Source: a virus
Virus record (IMG/VR): IMGVR_UViG_3300008267_000007
Coordinates: 1 to 64,000 of that record
Reading direction: 5' to 3' (one strand)
Length of the DNA: 64,000 nt
Of this stretch, positions 4,975 to 41,238 are shown one piece after another (position 1 is the stretch's first letter; every line of letters starts with the position of its first letter). The notes under the pieces were generated by a model, which was not told where the DNA came from, did not search any database, and was given only the letters and a program-made list of their open reading frames with translations. A program made the position numbers and the translations under genes.

Positions 4975-5749
4975 ATTAAAAAGAGTAGAAGATTATAACA
5001 AAACACTTCCAATCGTAGAACTATACACTGCAGTTCAATCAGAAGGAAGTAGAGCAGGATATCCTACAGTAGTAATTAGAACTACAGGATGTACTCATAG
5101 ATGTTGGTTCGGAGATGGAGGATGGTGTGATTCTTGGTACACAAGTATTCATCCTGAGAAAGGACATATCAGTTTCCAAGACATTATTAATATGTATGAT
5201 GCAAATCCCCACATCACAGAGATGATGTTAACAGGAGGATCACCTACTATGCATCCAGCATTAGTAAATGAACTAACACATTTCGCACATGATAGAGGAA
5301 TTTTCATTACTATTGAAACCGAAGGGAGTCACTTTTTGGAGACTGATTACCCTATTAACTTACTTAGCATTAGCCCTAAATTTTCTAATTCTGTTCCTAA
5401 AGTTGGGGTTAAAACACCTCAAGGAGACATCGTTGATGAGAAGATGGTTAAGCAACACAACAAGTTTAGATTAAACTTTGAAGCAATGTCTAAGATGATT
5501 TCATATCATTCAGATTACCACCTAAAACCAGTATGGGATGGAGTAGATGAGCAAGCATTACAAGAGATCCTAGGATGCATCAAAGTACTAGACATACCTC
5601 AGGAAAAAGTATGGTTCATGCCAGCAGGAGATTCAAGAGAGGCTTTATTTCAATCTTATCCAAAGTTATTTGATTGGGTAAGAGATAATGGTTACAGATT
5701 AACTTGGAGACCTCACATCATTGCATTTGAAGATCAAAGAGAAGTATAA
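4943..5749 (+). CDS. queE: 7-carboxy-7-deazaguanine synthase (radical SAM, QueE)
   Basis: 268 aa. QueE rearranges 6-carboxy-tetrahydropterin to 7-carboxy-7-deazaguanine (CDG) using a 4Fe-4S cluster and SAM. Three Cys that could bind the cluster are at about 50, 54 and 62 in GCTHRCWFGDGGWCDSWY; the third interval is longer than the classic CxxxCxxC, a variant I associate with some QueE proteins. LTGGSPTMHP (96-105) is the SAM-binding GGE-type motif. C-terminal WRPHIIAF fits the family. ATG 4964 (MESKLKRV) is an alternative start; both overlap queD. No queC is visible in the window, so the pathway would stop at CDG or use host QueC. Confidence 0.9.
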   Translation: MKRTQHLMESKLKRVEDYNKTLPIVELYTAVQSEGSRAGYPTVVIRTTGCTHRCWFGDGGWCDSWYTSIHPEKGHISFQDIINMYDANPHITEMMLTGGSPTMHPALVNELTHFAHDRGIFITIETEGSHFLETDYPINLLSISPKFSNSVPKVGVKTPQGDIVDEKMVKQHNKFRLNFEAMSKMISYHSDYHLKPVWDGVDEQALQEILGCIKVLDIPQEKVWFMPAGDSREALFQSYPKLFDWVRDNGYRLTWRPHIIAFEDQREV

Positions 5750-6683: not shown

Positions 6684-7081
6684 TGTTTAAAAATTTAGAC
6701 GGAAAACTTTATTTAAGTTGGAGTAATATTCAACAAGCAGTAGACACTATATGTGAAGCTGTACTAGCTTCAGAATTAGAAATAACATCAGTAACTGGGT
6801 TAAAACGCGGCGGGTTAATTCCTGCCGTGATGGTATCACATAAATTAAATTTACCGTGGTCTGACGTAATATTGCCTGGTACTTTAGTAATAGATGACAT
6901 TTGTGACACAGGGGAAACATTAAAAAATATAGCAGAAGGGGTACCAACAGCTGTATTGCATTATAAACCAACAGCTAGTATTCAACCAACATTTTACGCT
7001 AAGGAGGTAGGAGAAGAGTGGATAGTTTATCCTTGGGAAAGAGCAGATTCACAAGCTATCCCAGATTATTTAAGAGTATAA
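6683..7081 (+). CDS. phosphoribosyltransferase (purine PRT-like)
   Basis: 132 aa. The PRPP-binding loop LVIDDICDTGETL (68-80) is the hallmark of type I phosphoribosyltransferases; LKRGGLIPAVMVSHKL (40-55) gives the second phosphate-binding loop. C-terminal YAKEVGEEWIVYPWER resembles xanthine/hypoxanthine-guanine PRTs (gpt type), so salvage of a purine, or transfer of ribose-phosphate to a modified base, is plausible. Shorter than the typical 150-180 aa. Start ATG overlaps the folE stop (A shared), so the two are translationally coupled. Confidence 0.85.
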   Translation: MFKNLDGKLYLSWSNIQQAVDTICEAVLASELEITSVTGLKRGGLIPAVMVSHKLNLPWSDVILPGTLVIDDICDTGETLKNIAEGVPTAVLHYKPTASIQPTFYAKEVGEEWIVYPWERADSQAIPDYLRV

Positions 7082-7479: not shown

Positions 7480-8094
7480 ATGAATTTATTAGTACAAAAA
7501 CAACAAGAATTAATTAATCTTTTAACAAACCAAGTTGCGGACTTAACTATGATGTCAAAAATCGAGTTAGGAGATGATGTAATTGAAGAACTACAAAAAA
7601 TTAATGGTCAGATAGAGAGCCTTAAAACCTCAGTACCCTTTATTGATGAAGTAGAGATATTTAATGCCACAATGGGTAAACCAAATAACTATGAACCTAC
7701 TATCCCAGACTATAAAGAATGGAAATTTGTATATGACTTCATCCTTGAAGAACTTGAAGAATATAGAGAAGCTTGCGAAGCAGGAGACATCGTTGAAATT
7801 TTGGATGCTTTGTGTGATATTACTTATGTTGCCACTGGGAACGGTGCTATGTTACATGGCCTTAAGGATAAGATATGGCCAGCATATCAAGAAGTACAAG
7901 CTTCAAATATGTCAAAAGCTTGCAGAAATGAAGAAGAAGCTAAAGCTACTGTCATTAAGAGAAGCGTCGAGCAAAATGAAAAATGCCATTACGAAAAAGT
8001 TGGAGACTATTATATCGTCTATAGAAGCCGAGATAAGAAAGTAATGAAGAATGTAAACTACTTTAAACCAAATCTAAAACAATTTTTTAATTAA
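7480..8094 (+). CDS. MazG-like nucleotide pyrophosphohydrolase
   Basis: 204 aa. All-alpha NTP-PPase signature: ILEELEEYREACEAGD (88-103) gives the ExxxE metal motif and EILDALCDITYVATGN (106-121) the ExxD motif. Members remove pyrophosphate from (d)NTPs, often non-canonical ones, and phage versions are linked to nucleotide-pool control or (p)ppGpp turnover. An N-terminal coiled-coil-like stretch (1-55) precedes the domain, and a Lys-rich tail follows. Exact substrate cannot be read from sequence. Confidence 0.85.
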   Translation: MNLLVQKQQELINLLTNQVADLTMMSKIELGDDVIEELQKINGQIESLKTSVPFIDEVEIFNATMGKPNNYEPTIPDYKEWKFVYDFILEELEEYREACEAGDIVEILDALCDITYVATGNGAMLHGLKDKIWPAYQEVQASNMSKACRNEEEAKATVIKRSVEQNEKCHYEKVGDYYIVYRSRDKKVMKNVNYFKPNLKQFFN

Positions 8095-8105
8095 AAACAG
8101 ATAAT

Positions 8106-8474
8106 ATGGAAACTATTATATTACTAATTGTAACTACAATATTCGTATCAGTACTCGTTGCATACTTCCTAACAAGACAAGAGGATATACAAGAGGAATC
8201 TCCCCTACAAAAGGTATTGAACAAGTCAATGGAAAAATCGGCAAAAGACATTAAGGTAAAGGATGCAGTAGTGGTAAAACCCAGAGTAACCAAGGTTAAT
8301 GCCTCACCCGAGCTACTACAGCTTATAGAGCATTCCAACGAACTCGCCAAGGAGCTAGAGAACATTCCTACAGAAGACCTCGTAGCCTACGCAGCCAATA
8401 TAAGCACGCAAGGCAGAGAACCGGTAAAGTCTGTTAAAAAAAGAAAGTACTATCCTAAGGCACCTAAAAAGTAA
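8106..8474 (+). CDS. small N-terminally anchored membrane protein
   Basis: 122 aa. One membrane segment at residues 2-22 (IILLIVTTIFVSVLVAYFL) and a charged soluble region with a basic C-terminus (KKRKYYPKAPKK). Several codons late in the gene are more GC-rich than in neighbours (CTCGTAGCCTACGCAGCC), hinting at a different origin. A terminator follows. Function unknown. Confidence 0.7.
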   Translation: METIILLIVTTIFVSVLVAYFLTRQEDIQEESPLQKVLNKSMEKSAKDIKVKDAVVVKPRVTKVNASPELLQLIEHSNELAKELENIPTEDLVAYAANISTQGREPVKSVKKRKYYPKAPKK

Positions 8475-8614: not shown

Positions 8615-10345
8615 ATGAGTTATAAAAATATTACAACAACATCCTTAGGTAAAAATCGTCATCAAATCACATTATGGACTGATGATGGGGTTGAGCAGTA
8701 TGAATTTCAAAATTATGCTTATGAGAAATGTTATGAAAAAGACTCAACTCATACTAGTTTAAAGGGTGAACCCCTAAAAAAGGTTACTTACTGGGAACGT
8801 GACAATCCTTTTATTCATTACCATGATATGCCTATACATCAAAAATTTTTAATTGATAAGTATGGCATTAATGATGAACCCTCAACTTCACATAAAGAAA
8901 TATTCTTTGATATTGAGATTGAAATGGGAGGAGCACTTACCCCAGAATATATAAAAAGAGCACCTAAACCCGTTACCTCAATTGCTTGGTGGTATAAGCA
9001 AGAAGATAAATGGTATATCTTAATTTTAGATAAAGAAGGTAAAATCCCATCATCAACTGTGGGGAATAAACAAATAATCTCAGTCCCCAATGAAAGGGAA
9101 TTATTAACTAAATGGTTAAATTATCTAAATAAAATCCAACCTGATATATTAATTGGGTATAATAGTGATTATTTTGATATACCTTACCTATATTGGAGAA
9201 TGTACCATCAATTAGGTGAGCGTAAAGCTAATTCATTTTCTCCTATAGGTAAAATAAAAGAACCATCATTTCAGGGTACAGATGGGAATACTATATTCGA
9301 CCCAGATCAACCTATTAGAATTGAGGGTTTATATTCTTTAGATTATATTCGTTTACATAAAAAGTATTCTATGTCTGATGAACCGTCTTATAAATTAGAT
9401 GCTTTAGGTGAAAAATATTGTAAATTAGGTAAAATTGAATACGATGGTAGTTTAGATAGGTTATTTGAAACCGATAAAGAAAAATTTATTGAATATAACT
9501 TTCGTGATGTTGAAATCTTAAAAGCTCTAGATGCCAAATTTAATTATATTGGTCTAACTAAAAACTTGGCACATAAAGGTAAAATCCATTATGATGATGT
9601 ATATCAATCATCTAAAATCCATGATGGTGCTATTTCAGCATATCTGTTAAGTGAAGGTATAGTTCCACCTTCAAGAGATAGAAACTTAATGAGCAAGAAA
9701 AATTATGCTGGTGGTTACTTATTCTGCCCTAAAGCTGGGTTATACCGCTACATGTTTGATGAGGATTTAACTTCATTATACCCTTCAATTATCATGTCTC
9801 TTAATATTGGAAAAGAAACATTAGTTGGTAGAATACTGGATTTCAATGATAGGAATAATAGATTAGGTTTAAATGATTTACAAGCAGATGAAGAAGACCA
9901 ACTACGAAATATGGAATGGTTTACTAACCAAAACAAATTCAACAAAATTGATTGGACAAGCTCAAAATTAGTTAAACTACTCACTCAATATAATTTGGCT
10001 ATATCAGCAAATGGTGTTATATTCCGAACTGATACCCCATCTGTATTATCTACAATTTTAGCAAAATGGTTTGAAGAAAGGGTTTTATACAAGAATCTAA
10101 TGAAAAAAGCATATAAAGCTGGAGACGTAGTAGGTGGTGAAAAATATCATTTAATGCAATATACCATGAAAATCTTGCTAAATTCGCTATATGGAGCTAC
10201 AGCTTTACCTACATTTAGATATGGAAATGTAATTTTATCTGAGGCTATTACATTAAGTGGTCAACGTATCATTCAAGAATCAGCACTTTGTGCTAATAGA
10301 CATATGAACAAAGTTATTCGTAATGAAATTAAATTAGAAATATAA
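8615..10345 (+). CDS. 43: DNA polymerase family B, N-terminal part (exonuclease and palm motifs A/B)
   Basis: 576 aa, T4 gp43-type. The 3'-5' exonuclease motifs are complete: Exo I FFDIEIEM with D99/E101, Exo II GYNSDYFDIP (181-190), Exo III YNFRDVEIL (294-302). Polymerase motif A DEDLTSLYPSI (382-392) holds D384 and motif B KILLNSLYGA (519-528) the Lys/Tyr pair. Motif C is absent: the protein ends with KLEI soon after motif B. The TAA overlaps the next ATG (TAATG), and motif C occurs in the 10610 gene in the same reading frame. The polymerase is thus split between motifs B and C by a 264-base insertion; the two chains must assemble to work. Confidence 0.95.
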   Translation: MSYKNITTTSLGKNRHQITLWTDDGVEQYEFQNYAYEKCYEKDSTHTSLKGEPLKKVTYWERDNPFIHYHDMPIHQKFLIDKYGINDEPSTSHKEIFFDIEIEMGGALTPEYIKRAPKPVTSIAWWYKQEDKWYILILDKEGKIPSSTVGNKQIISVPNERELLTKWLNYLNKIQPDILIGYNSDYFDIPYLYWRMYHQLGERKANSFSPIGKIKEPSFQGTDGNTIFDPDQPIRIEGLYSLDYIRLHKKYSMSDEPSYKLDALGEKYCKLGKIEYDGSLDRLFETDKEKFIEYNFRDVEILKALDAKFNYIGLTKNLAHKGKIHYDDVYQSSKIHDGAISAYLLSEGIVPPSRDRNLMSKKNYAGGYLFCPKAGLYRYMFDEDLTSLYPSIIMSLNIGKETLVGRILDFNDRNNRLGLNDLQADEEDQLRNMEWFTNQNKFNKIDWTSSKLVKLLTQYNLAISANGVIFRTDTPSVLSTILAKWFEERVLYKNLMKKAYKAGDVVGGEKYHLMQYTMKILLNSLYGATALPTFRYGNVILSEAITLSGQRIIQESALCANRHMNKVIRNEIKLEI

Positions 10346-10609: not shown

Positions 10610-11545
10610 ATGAAACATTTAGAAGATACCCCATGGTGGATTTGCGATGAAGGTGATTTTAACTTCTGTGCTTATGTTGACACAGATTCCAATTATTTTA
10701 ATGCTGAGCCTTTATTATTACACCTTTATCCTGATTTTGAAACTAAAACTGATCAAGAAAAAGATGATATATTAGAAAAAGTGGCTCTTAAGTATCAAGA
10801 CATTATAACAGAATATTATAATACATTAGCTAAAGAAGCTTTTAATGTCCCAACTCATAGGCTTGAAATGAAAACTGAAGCTGTTATACGTTCTGCTTAT
10901 TTTAGAGCGACTCGTAGATATGCTCAATGGATTACTAAAAAAGAGGGTAGGCCTATAGAAGAACTTGATATTAAGGGATTAGAATTCAAAAAAGCTAACT
11001 TCCCTAAATATTTTGGAACATTTTATCAAAGTATATTAGAATTAATTATTAAAGGTACTCCTCAATCTATTATTGATAAACAAATATCAGATTTTAGAAA
11101 TGAAGCGACCTCACCTAATGTAGATTTTTGTTTAATAGGTAATCCAACATCTGTTAAGGTGTTAAATGATTATGTTGAATCTATTCCTAAACCTGGTAAA
11201 ATATTATCTATTCTTAAAAAAGGTGCAGGTGCAAATGTTAAAGCTGCTACTTGCTATAATGATTTACTAAGATTTTGGAATTTAGATAAAGATTATAGTC
11301 AAATTGTACAAGGTGATAAAATTAAATGGGTATATTTAAAAGATAACCCATATAAAATGGAAGCAATCGCATTCATGGAGTTTGATATGCCAGATAAAAT
11401 TAGAGATTTTATTAACGAGTACATTGATAGAGATAAAAGTTTTCAAACTATATTACAAAACAAATTACAAGGGTTTTATGATGACCTAGAATGGTCTTTA
11501 CCCCCTGCTAACCCACTTATTTATAAATTCTTTACATTCGGATAA
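10610..11545 (+). CDS. 43: DNA polymerase family B, C-terminal part (motif C and thumb)
   Basis: 311 aa. Motif C AYVDTDSNYF (21-30) supplies catalytic D24 and D26. The rest matches the T4 gp43 palm-thumb: RATRRYAQWI, LDIKGLEFKKANFPK, KAATCYNDLLRFW, and the C-terminal IYKFFTFG, which resembles the clamp-binding tail at the end of T4-type polymerases. It begins in the same frame as the upstream part; ATG 10610 sits one base after the small ORF. Together with 8615-10345 it restores every motif of a family B polymerase. Confidence 0.95.
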   Translation: MKHLEDTPWWICDEGDFNFCAYVDTDSNYFNAEPLLLHLYPDFETKTDQEKDDILEKVALKYQDIITEYYNTLAKEAFNVPTHRLEMKTEAVIRSAYFRATRRYAQWITKKEGRPIEELDIKGLEFKKANFPKYFGTFYQSILELIIKGTPQSIIDKQISDFRNEATSPNVDFCLIGNPTSVKVLNDYVESIPKPGKILSILKKGAGANVKAATCYNDLLRFWNLDKDYSQIVQGDKIKWVYLKDNPYKMEAIAFMEFDMPDKIRDFINEYIDRDKSFQTILQNKLQGFYDDLEWSLPPANPLIYKFFTFG

Positions 11546-35252: not shown

Positions 35253-35284
35253 TTTGGTGTGTTCCTTGGATTTACATATATTTA
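35253..35284 (+). promoter_or_regulatory. promoter, TTTG-N20-TATATTTA
   Basis: TTTG 35253-35256 and TATATTTA 35277-35284 with exactly 20 bases between, just before the homing endonuclease gene. Confidence 0.7.
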
Positions 35285-35289
35285 TTATC

Positions 35290-35856
35290 ATGGAACCGAC
35301 AATAATATATTATTTACACAATGGGAATGAAGTTCCATTTTACGTAGGAAAAACCAATAAGTTAAGTTTTAGAATTGGTCATCATAGAAAAACCTATGGT
35401 AATAACATTCAAATGGAAGTATTAGATATTGTAGATACAGATAATTGGGTATTTTGGGAACGTTATTGGATATCTCAATTTAAAACATGGGGTTTTAATC
35501 TAACTAATGCTAATGATGGGGGTGGTGGGTTAACTAAATGTGATTTCGGACCTGAACGTGGGAAGAAAATTTCCCAATCAAGTAAGGGTCAATCTCGAAG
35601 TAATAAAGGTAAACCCTTCACCGAAGAGCATAAAGCTAAAATTAAAGCCAAACGGGGCCATCTTAAAGAAAGAAAAAATACTTGGACTTTAATTCAAGTA
35701 ATTCAATTAGATTTAGAAGGTAATTTTATTAAAGAATGGGAATCACAAACACAAGCCCAACTTTATTTTAATAAACCTAATAGTGATGGAGTAGGGGCAT
35801 GCTGTAGGGGAGAACAAAAAACCGCTTACGGTTACAAATGGAAATTTAAAAATTAA
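35290..35856 (+). CDS. GIY-YIG homing endonuclease
   Basis: 188 aa from ATG 35290; a GTG at 35254 would overlap the promoter. IIYYLHNGNEVPFYVGKTNK (4-23) is the GIY-YIG start, WERYWISQFKTWGFNLTNANDGG (near 56-78) holds the Glu region, KKISQSSKGQSRSNKGKPFTEEHKA resembles the NUMOD3 DNA-binding repeats, and IQVIQLDLEGNFIKEW near the C-terminus a NUMOD1-like piece. It is a free-standing mobile nuclease, inserted next to the thioredoxin gene. Confidence 0.9.
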   Translation: MEPTIIYYLHNGNEVPFYVGKTNKLSFRIGHHRKTYGNNIQMEVLDIVDTDNWVFWERYWISQFKTWGFNLTNANDGGGGLTKCDFGPERGKKISQSSKGQSRSNKGKPFTEEHKAKIKAKRGHLKERKNTWTLIQVIQLDLEGNFIKEWESQTQAQLYFNKPNSDGVGACCRGEQKTAYGYKWKFKN

Positions 35857-38924: not shown

Positions 38925-39095
38925 ATGATTTACTATGAAGGGTATAAGATATCATTAAATGATTATAATTATGATAATGGCTTACATACTAAATATGTAT
39001 TTTACAACATAGATAACAGTGATGATCCACATTTACATGGTACAGGGATGAGTGTTGAAGATTGTGAAAAACAAATAGACGAACTAATATGGTAA
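38925..39095 (+). CDS. small hypothetical protein
   Basis: 56 aa (MIYYEGYKISLNDYNYDNGL...), acidic, Tyr-rich. It overlaps the ligase start by 7 bases. Follows the AAAGGTTATG leader. Not recognised. Confidence 0.65.
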   Translation: MIYYEGYKISLNDYNYDNGLHTKYVFYNIDNSDDPHLHGTGMSVEDCEKQIDELIW

Positions 39096-40216
39096 AAGTA
39101 TTCCCAACATTATATAAACGTTCTAATAGTAAAGAACATATCAATCAATGGCAAATTGAAGTTGATGGAGATAGTTTTAGAACCACAACTGGATTTGTTA
39201 ATATGAAGCAATTCACTGGTGACTGGACTAAATGTGAGCCTAAAAATATAGGTAAAAAGAATTCTACAACTTCTGAAGAGCAAGCGTTATTTGAAGCCAA
39301 TGCTATGTTTACTAAACGTAAAGATTTAGGTTATTGGGAAGATATTAATAATTGTGATAAGAAGGTGTTTTTTACACCAATGTTAGCACAAGATTATGAT
39401 AAACGTAAAGATAAGGTTAAATTTCCAATCCTATCACAACCTAAACTAGATGGTATTAGATGTGTAGTCAAATCTGATGGGATGTGGACTAGAAATGGTA
39501 AAGAAATTATATCTGCACCTCATGTGTATGAAAATTTAAAGCATATATTTGATTTACAACCTGACCTAGTATTAGACGGTGAATTGTATACTTCAAATAA
39601 GGACGTTGATTTTAACACTATTATTTCATGTGTTAGAAAAACTAAACCAACACAAGCTGATTTGGATTTGTCTGCTCAATATATTGAGTATTGGATGTAT
39701 GATATGTTAGATCCTAATGAAGTTGATTATGGTTATGAAGGGAGATGTGAAAATTTATTTGATTTAAAACGAGAATTTAATTTAGACCCGTTTATTTATA
39801 AAGTAATTGCAACTTATGAATTACCTGATGCTAAACAGGTAAATGAACAGTTAAGTCATTATATTGAACAAGGGTTTGAAGGTCAAATATTAAGAGACCC
39901 AAATTCATTATATGAAAATAAACGTTCCAATGGTTTATTAAAACATAAAACATTCCATGATGATGAGTTTAAGATATTATCAGTTAATGAAGGAGTAGGT
40001 AAATTTGCTAACAAAGCCGCTACTATGTCATTCCAAACACCAGAAGGAGTTAAATTTGACTCAACTATTAATGGTACAATGGAGTATTTAGAAGAAATAT
40101 GGGCCATTAAGGATCAATTAATAGGTAAGTTAGCAACTGTTAAGTATTTTGAAAAAACAACTGATGGTTCATTAAGATTTCCTAAAGTTATTCAAATAGA
40201 TCGTTTGGATATGTAA
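39089..40216 (+). CDS. ATP-dependent DNA ligase
   Basis: 375 aa. Motif I SQPKLDGIRC with the adenylated Lys119 (116-125), motif Ia-III regions DLVLDGELYT (near 158-167), motif IV EGQILRDP (near 263-270) and motif V GLLKHKTF (near 281-288). Residues 14-80 look like an N-terminal WGR-type strand domain (KEHINQWQIEVDGDSFRTTTG) that would bind DNA. Seals nicks during replication and repair; T4 ligase is 487 aa, so this is a shorter form. Confidence 0.92.
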   Translation: MVKVFPTLYKRSNSKEHINQWQIEVDGDSFRTTTGFVNMKQFTGDWTKCEPKNIGKKNSTTSEEQALFEANAMFTKRKDLGYWEDINNCDKKVFFTPMLAQDYDKRKDKVKFPILSQPKLDGIRCVVKSDGMWTRNGKEIISAPHVYENLKHIFDLQPDLVLDGELYTSNKDVDFNTIISCVRKTKPTQADLDLSAQYIEYWMYDMLDPNEVDYGYEGRCENLFDLKREFNLDPFIYKVIATYELPDAKQVNEQLSHYIEQGFEGQILRDPNSLYENKRSNGLLKHKTFHDDEFKILSVNEGVGKFANKAATMSFQTPEGVKFDSTINGTMEYLEEIWAIKDQLIGKLATVKYFEKTTDGSLRFPKVIQIDRLDM

Positions 40217-40235
40217 AATATATTTCGTATATTTA
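40204..40235 (+). promoter_or_regulatory. conserved phage promoter, TTTG-N20-TATATTTA
   Basis: TTTG 40204-40207 lies inside the 3' end of the ligase gene; TATATTTA 40228-40235, N20, preceded by TTTCG. It precedes the 40255 peptide and the tRNA-like region. Confidence 0.85.
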
Positions 40236-40254
40236 AGTGTTAAAAAGATATGAT

Positions 40255-40332: not shown

Positions 40333-40339
40333 TTAAAAT

Positions 40340-40429
40340 AGTCAGGTGGTGAAATGGTAAACACATGGTAGGCACTGTCCCCATATAGGTGAGAAACCTT
40401 GACTACAGGTTCGAGTCCTGTCCTGACAA
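40340..40429 (+). tRNA. tRNA-like element 1, Leu-type (class II), odd anticodon arm
   Basis: 90 bases. Acceptor AGTCAGG/CCTGACA (40340-40346, 40422-40428; 6 of 7 pairs), D arm GTG-AAATGGTAAA-CAC typical of tRNA-Leu, variable arm AGGT/ACCT, T arm ACAGG-TTCGAGT-CCTGT. The anticodon part (40365-40384) gives only ATGG/CCAT with an irregular loop; no U33-anticodon pattern fits. Could be a degenerate tRNA-Leu. Confidence 0.45.
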
Positions 40430-40438
40430 CAAATACAA

Positions 40439-40560
40439 GGTTCCTGAGATAAAGGATTAACTTAGCACTAACTAACTAAATACTTAAACTCCAGCATAAA
40501 GGTTTGCGACCCCAGTTAGTGATGGTGGTGGAAAGATAGGTTCAACTCCTGTAGGGACTA
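40439..40560 (+). tRNA. tRNA-like element 2 with a large anticodon-region insertion
   Basis: Acceptor GGTTCCT/AGGGACT (40439-40445, 40553-40559; two wobble pairs), T arm ATAGG-TTCAACT-CCTGT. At the anticodon place an 8-bp stem CACTAACT/AGTTAGTG (40466-40473, 40514-40521) encloses 40 bases instead of 7. Either an insertion or intron-like piece, or not a tRNA. Confidence 0.3.
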
Positions 40561-40658
40561 CTAAATAAAACTCTATAAGATGTTATTGTCTCTAGTCTAG
40601 AATAGATTCAATGATACGATTCGTAGCTCCAAGGGTAGTGGCTTATAGAGTACCTGGA

Positions 40659-40734
40659 GATCAAGTAAGTTAAAAAGGTATAACATTCTGTCGAAAGGCA
40701 GAAAGGGTTGCAGGTTCGAATCCTGTCTTGGTTG
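40659..40734 (+). tRNA. tRNA-like element 3, 8-base anticodon loop
   Basis: 76 bases, standard length. Acceptor GATCAAG/CTTGGTT (40659-40665, 40727-40733), D stem GTT/AAC with GG in the loop, T arm GCAGG-TTCGAAT-CCTGT. The anticodon stem TTCTG/CAGAA (40686-40690, 40699-40703) is perfect but the loop TCGAAAGG has 8 bases and no U33 before GAA. Confidence 0.45.
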
Positions 40735-40804
40735 CAAAAATAAAGAGAACCGTTATCTGCACCTTCGAGGTAGTAGAGAGCAGACGTCATACTTTATTTA
40801 AATT

Positions 40805-40873
40805 TATTGTGTAGTCTCAGTGGTGGAGCTAGTCAAAATAAGACTGCAGTAGGTTCGATTCCTACCACAATAT
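40805..40873 (+). tRNA. tRNA-like element 4, D-arm bulge and loop lacking U33
   Basis: 69 bases. Perfect 7-bp acceptor TATTGTG/CACAATA and 5-bp T arm GTAGG-TTCGATT-CCTAC. The D arm GCTCAGTGGTGGAGC is standard except for a T inserted after G. The anticodon arm TAGTC/GACTG has the loop AAAATAA, without U33, and almost no variable region. Confidence 0.4.
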
Positions 40874-40902
40874 CAAAGAAATTAATTTAAAACCCAACAA
40901 AA

Positions 40903-41217: not shown

Positions 41218-41238
41218 TTCGTATATTTAGGTATAATA
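41218..41238 (+). promoter_or_regulatory. conserved phage promoter (TCGTATATT class)
   Basis: TTTCGTATATTTAGGTATAA; TATATTTA 41222-41229. A GTTG about 19 bases upstream may be the -33 element. Confidence 0.75.

Follow-up and report, generated by a model that had tools for sequence, protein, structure and literature searches.

The tRNA-like cluster that follows a phage DNA ligase gene is interpreted here as a group of non-decoding, exchangeable structured RNAs that are carried on a tRNA scaffold, would be matured like tRNAs, and would bind a variable partner through their inserts. We assign this reading a probability of roughly 0.6. Across the collected loci we found a constant frame, a diversity of inserts, insert structure under selection, and replacement of inserts in place at four sites. 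Transcription, processing, partner binding, and recombination through the frame are the steps that would join these observations into one system.

Elements of the window and their neighborhood

The window, that is, the whole stretch of DNA analyzed, comprises bases 1 to 64000 of a 111,094-base phage record. Mostly from sequence features, we take its genes to include those for thymidylate synthase, DNA polymerase, a clamp, a clamp-loader-like protein, GroEL, and a baseplate-like protein. The DNA polymerase gene is apparently split into two reading frames, 8615-10345 and 10610-11545, separated by 264 bases. The product of a reading frame a few kilobases upstream of the cluster (35254-35856) resembles a GIY-YIG endonuclease, as judged from a motif. 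The RNA cluster sits 3′ of a DNA ligase gene (39089-40216), which resembles annotated phage ligases, and of one short reading frame. A repeat with a putative promoter role, TTCGTATATTTAAG, lies upstream of the cluster at 40224-40237 (plus strand). A variant occurs near 41218, and the repeat also precedes genes in two of the loci retrieved for comparison, which carry L-numbers (L001 and L002).

On both strands of the 64 kb, T arms that combine 5/5 pairs and a closing G-C with a TTCRANY loop were found only at 40405, 40536, 40710, and 40849. These are the four reported in an earlier note on this DNA. Together with their acceptor partners they all fall inside 535 bases, and the acceptors pair at 6/7 positions in E1 (A·A at the end) and at 7/7 in E2, E3, and E4, the last being Watson-Crick throughout. 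E1 (40340-40429, plus strand) consists of acceptor strands at 40340-40346 and 40422-40428, a Leu-type D arm (40349-40364), an insert (40365-40404), a T arm (40405-40421), and an A73-like base (40429). The Leu-type D arm and variable arm reported for it in the earlier note are present; the insert replaces the anticodon and variable arms, with ATGG/CCAT around 12 nt at the anticodon place. Homologues of E1 occur in L098, L053, and L059, and its D arm as an exact pattern gave 0 matches. E2 (40439-40559, plus strand; acceptor 40439-40445/40553-40559, T arm 40536-40552) carries, where the anticodon arm belongs, 40 nt enclosed by a stem of 8 bp (40466-40473/40514-40521). It is identical at 117 of 121 positions to a sequence of another lineage (L241), found again in L283, and in both counterparts the U.G of its T stem becomes U-A.

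E3 (40659-40734, plus strand; T arm 40710-40726) has a D arm and, at the anticodon place, a 7-bp stem closed by GAAA, alternatively read as 5 bp around 8 nt; an exact pattern search with this arm returned 6 stretches, none of them in a tRNA-like context when inspected by eye. E4 (40805-40873, plus strand; T arm 40849-40865) has a short variable region and an anticodon-like arm with a 5-bp stem (one G·U) and the 7-nt loop AAAATAA. With A at place 33, it is the nearest miss to the combination of a 5-bp stem, a 7-nt loop, and U33, which the note had denied to all four elements and which indeed none of them has. The acceptor and T arm of E4 are common to four loci (L317-L320) in which the middles differ and one acceptor pair has changed on both sides (A-U to G-C); ARAGORN calls these four relatives tRNA-Ser. 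Between the tRNA-like elements lie two structured units without a T arm, both on the plus strand. E5 (40570-40651; fold z, -2.00) is closed by its own 10-bp stem (40570-40579/40642-40651), the long-range stem already noticed, and E6 (40739-40798; fold z, -2.94), which had gone unnamed, by the 7-bp stem AATAAAG/CTTTATT. By analogy with an insert family that occurs once without a scaffold (F7, in L062), E5 and E6 may be free-standing insert-type RNAs. The middle of E3, E5, and E6 had no homologue in the loci collected by the time of that search.

ARAGORN called 0 tRNAs in the 64-kb window, and the Rfam tRNA model at its gathering threshold matched only E1 (38.9 bits) and E3 (37.6 bits). The suspicion that four neighbors odd at the same arm are out of the ordinary was borne out. 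No tmRNA (ARAGORN and Rfam) and no group I intron (Rfam Intron_gpI, gathering) was found in the window, and no GOLLD or ROOL match and no antitoxin family reached Rfam gathering in the window or in 20 array loci. The fold z values of the tRNA-like elements are +0.58 (E1), +0.44 (E2), -2.41 (E3), and -1.18 (E4), with -0.22 for the entire region. The case for the cluster rests on comparison because folding energies alone are weak.

Relatives of the window ligase are encoded in 11 IMG/VR loci. The 1,150 bases that follow the ligase gene contain no such RNA cluster in any of the 11, and neither Rfam (gathering) nor ARAGORN calls a tRNA in these loci, so the cluster is an accessory insertion in the window phage. 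The element finder placed single scaffold elements about 4 kb beyond the ligase in L003 and L004. The nearest relative, G001, has a ligase 95% identical to that of the window and a large tRNA array located elsewhere (L048; 18 ARAGORN genes with ordinary anticodons), which also includes odd elements. One of these (6895-6999, minus strand) has the acceptor and T arm of E1, a similar D arm, and a different middle; a 59-nt element of G001 (L049) is little more than an acceptor and a T arm. The same array holds, at about 5030-5330 (minus strand), Lys- and Gln-like tRNAs with ordinary anticodon loops (CTTTTAA and CTTTGAC) and unusual T loops (AGCATTA and AGCGTTA), neither of which is listed by ARAGORN.

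The AGTCAGG scaffold class and related frames

The frame of E1 defines a class of elements with the consensus AGTCAGG…ACAGGTTCGAATCCTGT-CCTGACT, often including a Leu-type D arm. Membership was defined by an acceptor with at least 6/7 positions of AGTCAGG and CCTGACT, a perfect T arm, and a variable middle. E1 is the sole member in the window; the acceptors of E2 to E4 differ, and these elements are related to the class through architecture and not through its sequence. Scanning IMG/VR with the T arm and 3′ acceptor of E1 matched at least 120 stretches (80 loci among the matches listed), and most of the listed 3′-half matches share the start AGTCAGG-TGG, for which they were not selected, while their middles are unrelated. 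The converse scan with the 5′ part AGTCAGGTGGCGGAATNGGTAGACGC again matched at least 120 stretches. Among 119 such matches in L174-L282, 83 are followed within 180 bases by a T arm and a CCTGACT-type strand, another 25 show a T-arm core, and 3 are truncated by the sequence end. The 3′-half and 5′-half scans thus recover one and the same class. Outside these viral loci, the 5′ pattern was found among 84,980 species genomes in only 3 contigs, each from a metagenome bin, and the scaffold pattern occurred in 1 of 395 genomes of the phylum to which genome G062 belongs, namely in G062 itself. A phage collection gave no full-length match to the 30-base 5′ query, the best (90% coverage, 93% identity) lying in a tRNA-Leu.

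The element finder returned 763 elements, of which 759 distinct acceptor-plus-T-arm elements were left after 4 enclosing ones were dropped; acceptor partners were chosen with extra credit for an anticodon arm, in both classes alike. Of the 759, 341 were assigned to the scaffold class, with first occurrences in 202 loci, and 418 have other frames. The middles of the 341 members span 22 to 159 nt (below 38 nt in only 5), and a Leu-type D arm was recognized by pattern in 221. In 264 representatives the acceptor bases, unlike the middle, are kept at 0.94 to 1.0, a constancy that is partly given by definition and that exact-pattern fetching exaggerates further. One locus (L063) has five normal tRNAs and, under the strict rule, seven members whose inserts all differ. 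A canonical tRNA lies within 1.5 kb in the same locus for 101 of the 341 members and is on the same strand in all 101; for the remaining 240, none was counted within 1.5 kb in the stretch examined.

The scaffold class has no anticodon arm beyond chance. Canonical arms (at least 4 pairs, U33, and a purine at 37) occur in 26 of the 264 representatives against 25.1 (SD, 4.7) after shuffling, and in 10 of the 84 members with a middle under 62 nt against 7.6. Other-frame elements of that size have one in 340 of 384 cases, with 41.1 in shuffled sequences. ARAGORN, which is lenient toward weak arms, gives a tRNA name or "???" to some members in the loci submitted, including Cys for the E1 relative in L053, Glu in L055 and L070, and Pro in L063 and L137, and two or three members resemble real tRNA-Lys (e.g., in L097 and L071). 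Group I introns were matched by Rfam in one of the 20 array loci (L062), where the match adjoins a tmRNA match (7609-8193, minus strand) on a contig that also has scaffold elements. A hairpin of the form N4-GAAAGA-N4 (e.g., L241:1036-1049) recurs in the array loci with the stems CTTG/CAAG, CTCG/CGAG, GATG/CATC, ATTG/CAAT, and GCTG/CAGC; AGTCAGG follows within 40 bases at 20 of 86 sites against 0.6 expected, and the hairpin resembles the 3′ terminus of a further class of RNAs whose body varies. In some elements (L241:843-975, L113, L212, and L261) the D loop is a second insertion place, with GGGGTGTCC or GGGGTGTTGCCC.

Elements of similar architecture were found in other frames and in cultured phages. 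The frame GAATCGG…GAGGGTTCGAATCCCTC-CCGATTC occurs in 23 stretches, including G001 and Flavobacterium phage immuto, whose record labels the element tRNA-Cys; ARAGORN does not call it. Nine of the 23, chosen as distinct, align as a single family that combines a long arm (TGT.AA/TTAACA) with a second hairpin. In this alignment 93.2% of cells pair against 88.3% after shuffling and covariation is 0.144 against 0.068, values reached in 0 of 500 shuffles. The number of pairs with both sides altered (3 versus 2.3; 139 of 500 shuffles) and that of additional pair types (8 versus 6.7; 84 of 500) do not exceed chance. In helix 3, 72% of cells pair, and RNAalifold alone gives one compensatory pair. In Tenacibaculum phage pT24, four tRNAs are annotated (Sup, Undet, Pro, and Undet), and an RNA ligase gene is reported. 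By our reading, three of the four are without U at place 33; two have an eight-position anticodon stem and are called tRNA-Ile by ARAGORN. Beside the three odd ones stands a normal-looking tRNA (L292:5278-5351) with the anticodon CTA, of the amber suppressor type (Pyl in ARAGORN). A further frame, TGATTAT…TAAGGTTCGAATCCTTA with 3′ strands such as TTAATCA or TTAGTCA, encloses differing middles in L070:3106, L078:1680, L105:5879, and L241:254-350.

A T4-type gp23 capsid gene was present in 20 of 50 scaffold contigs examined; its absence says little because the contigs are mostly fragments. Eight of the gp23 proteins are 33 to 83% identical in pairwise comparison, yet their contigs share the frame, a constancy that is exaggerated because contigs were picked by exact frame match. 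Promoter-like motifs, the two cultured phages of related architecture, and one Chitinophagaceae bin suggest a host range in the Bacteroidota.

Structure and exchange of the inserts

Insert lengths have a median of 55 nt, with 10% and 90% quantiles of 25 and 93 nt. The inserts fall into 264 clusters, 215 of them singletons, and of 251 pairs from the same locus, only 1 has both inserts in a single cluster. Folding is weak on average, with a mean z of -0.62 (n = 240, inserts under 25 nt being left out of the 264) against -1.34 for normal anticodon-plus-variable regions and -0.26 for random pieces.

Covariation was assessed in 12 insert families and in the E1 family, all aligned with part of the D arm, over helices of at least 4 pairs formed by all members. 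These 13 families contain 22 compensatory pairs, against 8.9 (SD, 3.1; maximum, 17) in 200 column shuffles, with at least one in 11 families: five in F8; three each in F5, F6, and F10; two in F4; one each in F1, F2, F9, F11, F12, and E1; and none in F3 and F7. F8 and F12 consist of two sequences each and account for 6 of the 22 pairs. Examples include ACTAGG/CCTAGT, ACTTGG/CCAAGT, and ACTATG/CATAGT in F5; GTTGAA/TTCAAC versus GAGCAA/TTGCTC in F6; GTGTG/TACAC, GCGTG/TACGC, and ACGTG/TACGT in F4; and AGGT/ACCT versus GGGT/ACCC in the E1 family. A second F5 helix (GGGT/ACCC and GAGT/ACTC), read by eye, would cross the first and likely form a pseudoknot. These compensatory changes indicate that insert structure is under selection at the RNA level. 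Among motifs shared by inserts, mainly D-arm remnants stood out. Comparison of inserts of at least 20 nt with the collected phage DNA revealed no antisense partner, the best matches being related inserts in elements that the finder had missed; at 32 bits or more there were 17 plus-strand and 35 minus-strand matches against 14 and 13 for shuffled inserts, and strand here depends on locus orientation.

Whole inserts are exchanged in place. We paired scaffold elements between loci wherever the 300 bases on either side were homologous, covering L053-L283 other than L173 without de-duplication, and obtained 58 pairs at 33 sites. Where the flanks are 98 to 100% identical, 29 of 30 pairs have like inserts; the exception, L063/L091, has flanks of 99 and 100% and middles of 98 and 48 nt. 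Flanks of 85 to 98% are found in 28 pairs, 18 of which have inserts under 0.6 identical and 8 at 0.8 or more. All 18 replaced pairs come from 2 of the 4 sites with pairs in this range: six contigs with five inserts (L072/L115/L139/L145/L166/L222; 12 replaced pairs) and five contigs with two inserts (L086/L111/L134/L171/L187; 6 replaced pairs). The fourth exchanging site, L003/L004, was found via the ligase gene and has flanks of 93.6 and 95.0%. Overall, the flanks at exchange sites are 88 to 99.5% identical while the insert is replaced. Canonical tRNAs, compared in the same way, gave 32 pairs at 26 sites, with 0 of 26 pairs replaced at flanks of 85% or more, although 22 of these 26 lie at 98% or above and the 85 to 98% range holds only 4 pairs at 3 sites. 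At flanks of about 81%, two tRNA pairs at one site are replaced. Other-frame elements without a canonical arm show replacement in 2 of 9 pairs, at 1 of 7 sites. The exchange of entire inserts was thus directly seen at four sites, with few like-for-like tRNA controls.

Inserts also recur outside their usual frame. Four loci (L147, L159, L266, and L239) have F7 within the scaffold, and in L062 it stands outside one, between other complementary strands (by eye); none of the 395 genomes from the G062 phylum contains it. An AGTAGAG acceptor (L169) holds F2, an AGTCGGT acceptor (L063) holds F8, and one insert is common to the AGTCAGG frame (L205) and a TGTTGTG frame (G001). Ten bases upstream of the E2 counterpart, L241 and L283 have an element with the E1 acceptor, nearly the E1 T arm, and another D arm and insert.

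Proposed role, alternatives, and known systems

We propose that a constant frame (acceptor, T arm, and often a Leu-type D arm) would hold a structured insert at the place of the anticodon arm, and that the scaffold genes would be cotranscribed with the tRNA array. The frame would then be a substrate for host RNase P, for 3′ processing, and for CCA addition, and would in this way give the RNA defined ends and stability; such tRNA-type end maturation of the window elements is likely. The insert would be the working part, binding a partner from the host or a rival phage. Recombination would swap inserts as cassettes, with the constant frame as homology and with frame and flanks staying in place, presumably because partners differ between hosts. 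The role might be counterdefense by RNA mimicry, as in the pseudo-ToxI RNA of phage PhiTE. We advance this role tentatively; it is favored because insert turnover with kept flanks fits an arms race and because the PhiTE mimic provides a precedent. A more specific version is possible but rather doubtful: an RNA-effector cassette system of T4-like phages, at least some infecting Bacteroidota, with inserts (some of them pseudoknots) serving as decoys or antitoxin mimics against RNA-dependent defenses and with T4 RNAC as a distant relic.

Several other explanations share part of this evidence. Mitochondrial t-elements serve as tRNA-like processing punctuation, and the frames could likewise serve only to mark where RNase P and 3′ nucleases cut phage mRNAs and tRNAs apart, with the middle as unconstrained filler. 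The kept acceptor and T arm, the free middle length, and the weak folding energy of the inserts would suit that function, which we nevertheless consider unlikely in view of the compensatory changes within insert families, the recurrence of inserts in other frames and once without a frame, and their replacement as wholes, with no drift, at four sites. In-place exchange between constant ends would also be expected of recombination or homing hot spots that act as DNA, the RNA being irrelevant; compensatory changes, however, act on RNA, and the uniform strand of members and neighboring canonical tRNAs (101/101) likewise makes this quite improbable.

Three further readings take up, in part, those of the earlier note. 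A decaying cluster of pseudo-tRNAs left by recombination would account for the acceptor mismatch of E1, for the likeness of E2 to E4 to damaged tRNAs, and for the missing cluster behind the ligase of the eleven relatives. This reading is scarcely credible given hundreds of elements with the same acceptor and T arm and unrelated middles (the acceptor being kept partly by definition), members that adjoin large sets of normal tRNAs, covariation, and the preservation of E2 in another lineage. Functional tRNAs with removable introns or unusual arms that still decode are very improbable. The reported pT24 RNA ligase, the near-normal arm of E4 and of some members, and the names ARAGORN gives to some members and to the E4 relatives speak for them; against them stand anticodon arms at shuffle level, normal tRNAs alongside, and the want of a common intron class in 20 array loci, and splicing in particular is unlikely because so few middles are short and no group I intron was matched in the window. 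Decoys for anticodon nucleases in the narrow sense are unlikely too, since these elements offer such enzymes no normal anticodon loop as a target; we favor decoys or mimics of another kind. Insert families and the E4 acceptor show compensatory changes; E3, E5, and E6 have no homologue in the loci searched.

If the reading as scaffolded, exchangeable RNAs is correct, phages would use a natural tRNA frame as the carrier of a display system for fast-changing RNAs. It would imply that hundreds of structured RNAs have gone unnamed, being passed over by annotation programs or entered as tRNA-Pro, tRNA-Cys, or "undetermined," and would give a handle on the roles of T4 RNAC and RNAD and on why phages carry such clusters. 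The reading is testable because cultured phages with the wider architecture exist (Tenacibaculum phage pT24 and Flavobacterium phage immuto). A tRNA-scaffold class of this kind is not described among the literature matches listed, which mostly do not extend to subscription papers and preprints.

The nearest known RNAs are T4 RNAC and RNAD. In the T4 record, rnaC (species 1 RNA) and rnaD (species 2 RNA) are annotated as small stable non-tRNA RNAs in the phage tRNA cluster, a setting like that found here. Near the 3′ end of rnaC lies a perfect T arm (CCGGG-TTCGAAT-CCCGG), and the annotated 5′ end yields no clean 7-bp acceptor. T4 carries one copy of each, their likeness to the scaffold RNAs was compared at the T arm only, and we know of no exchangeable insert in either. 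One report describes both as late RNAs "of yet unknown functions" that were detected by Northern blotting (PMC9697503). PhiTE pseudo-ToxI, a mimic of a type III antitoxin, is a phage noncoding RNA that evolves through expansion and recombination and inhibits a host defense (PMC3475682). ToxI is given as a pseudoknot in another paper (PMC5772629), and insert family F5 is pseudoknot-like as well. PhiTE differs in carrying repeats, a tRNA frame goes unmentioned in the abstract of that description (PMC3475682), and no antitoxin family was matched in the 20 array loci. GOLLD and ROOL are large structured phage RNAs, often near tRNA islands and described as of unknown function (PMC12286853); each has one elaborate architecture (often more than 800 nt in GOLLD), unlike the variable scaffold inserts.

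Phage tRNAs with altered anticodon loops are thought to resist tRNA nucleases, as stated in a further study (PMC10264068). Those tRNAs keep a decoding arm, whereas the scaffold class has none beyond chance. In the tRNA scaffold used for recombinant RNA, the RNA of interest is reportedly placed at the anticodon stem. This laboratory system has an RNA of interest expressed in Escherichia coli within a tRNA frame (PMC3753655). That scaffold is man-made, whereas the phage arrangement is natural, repeated, and exchanged.
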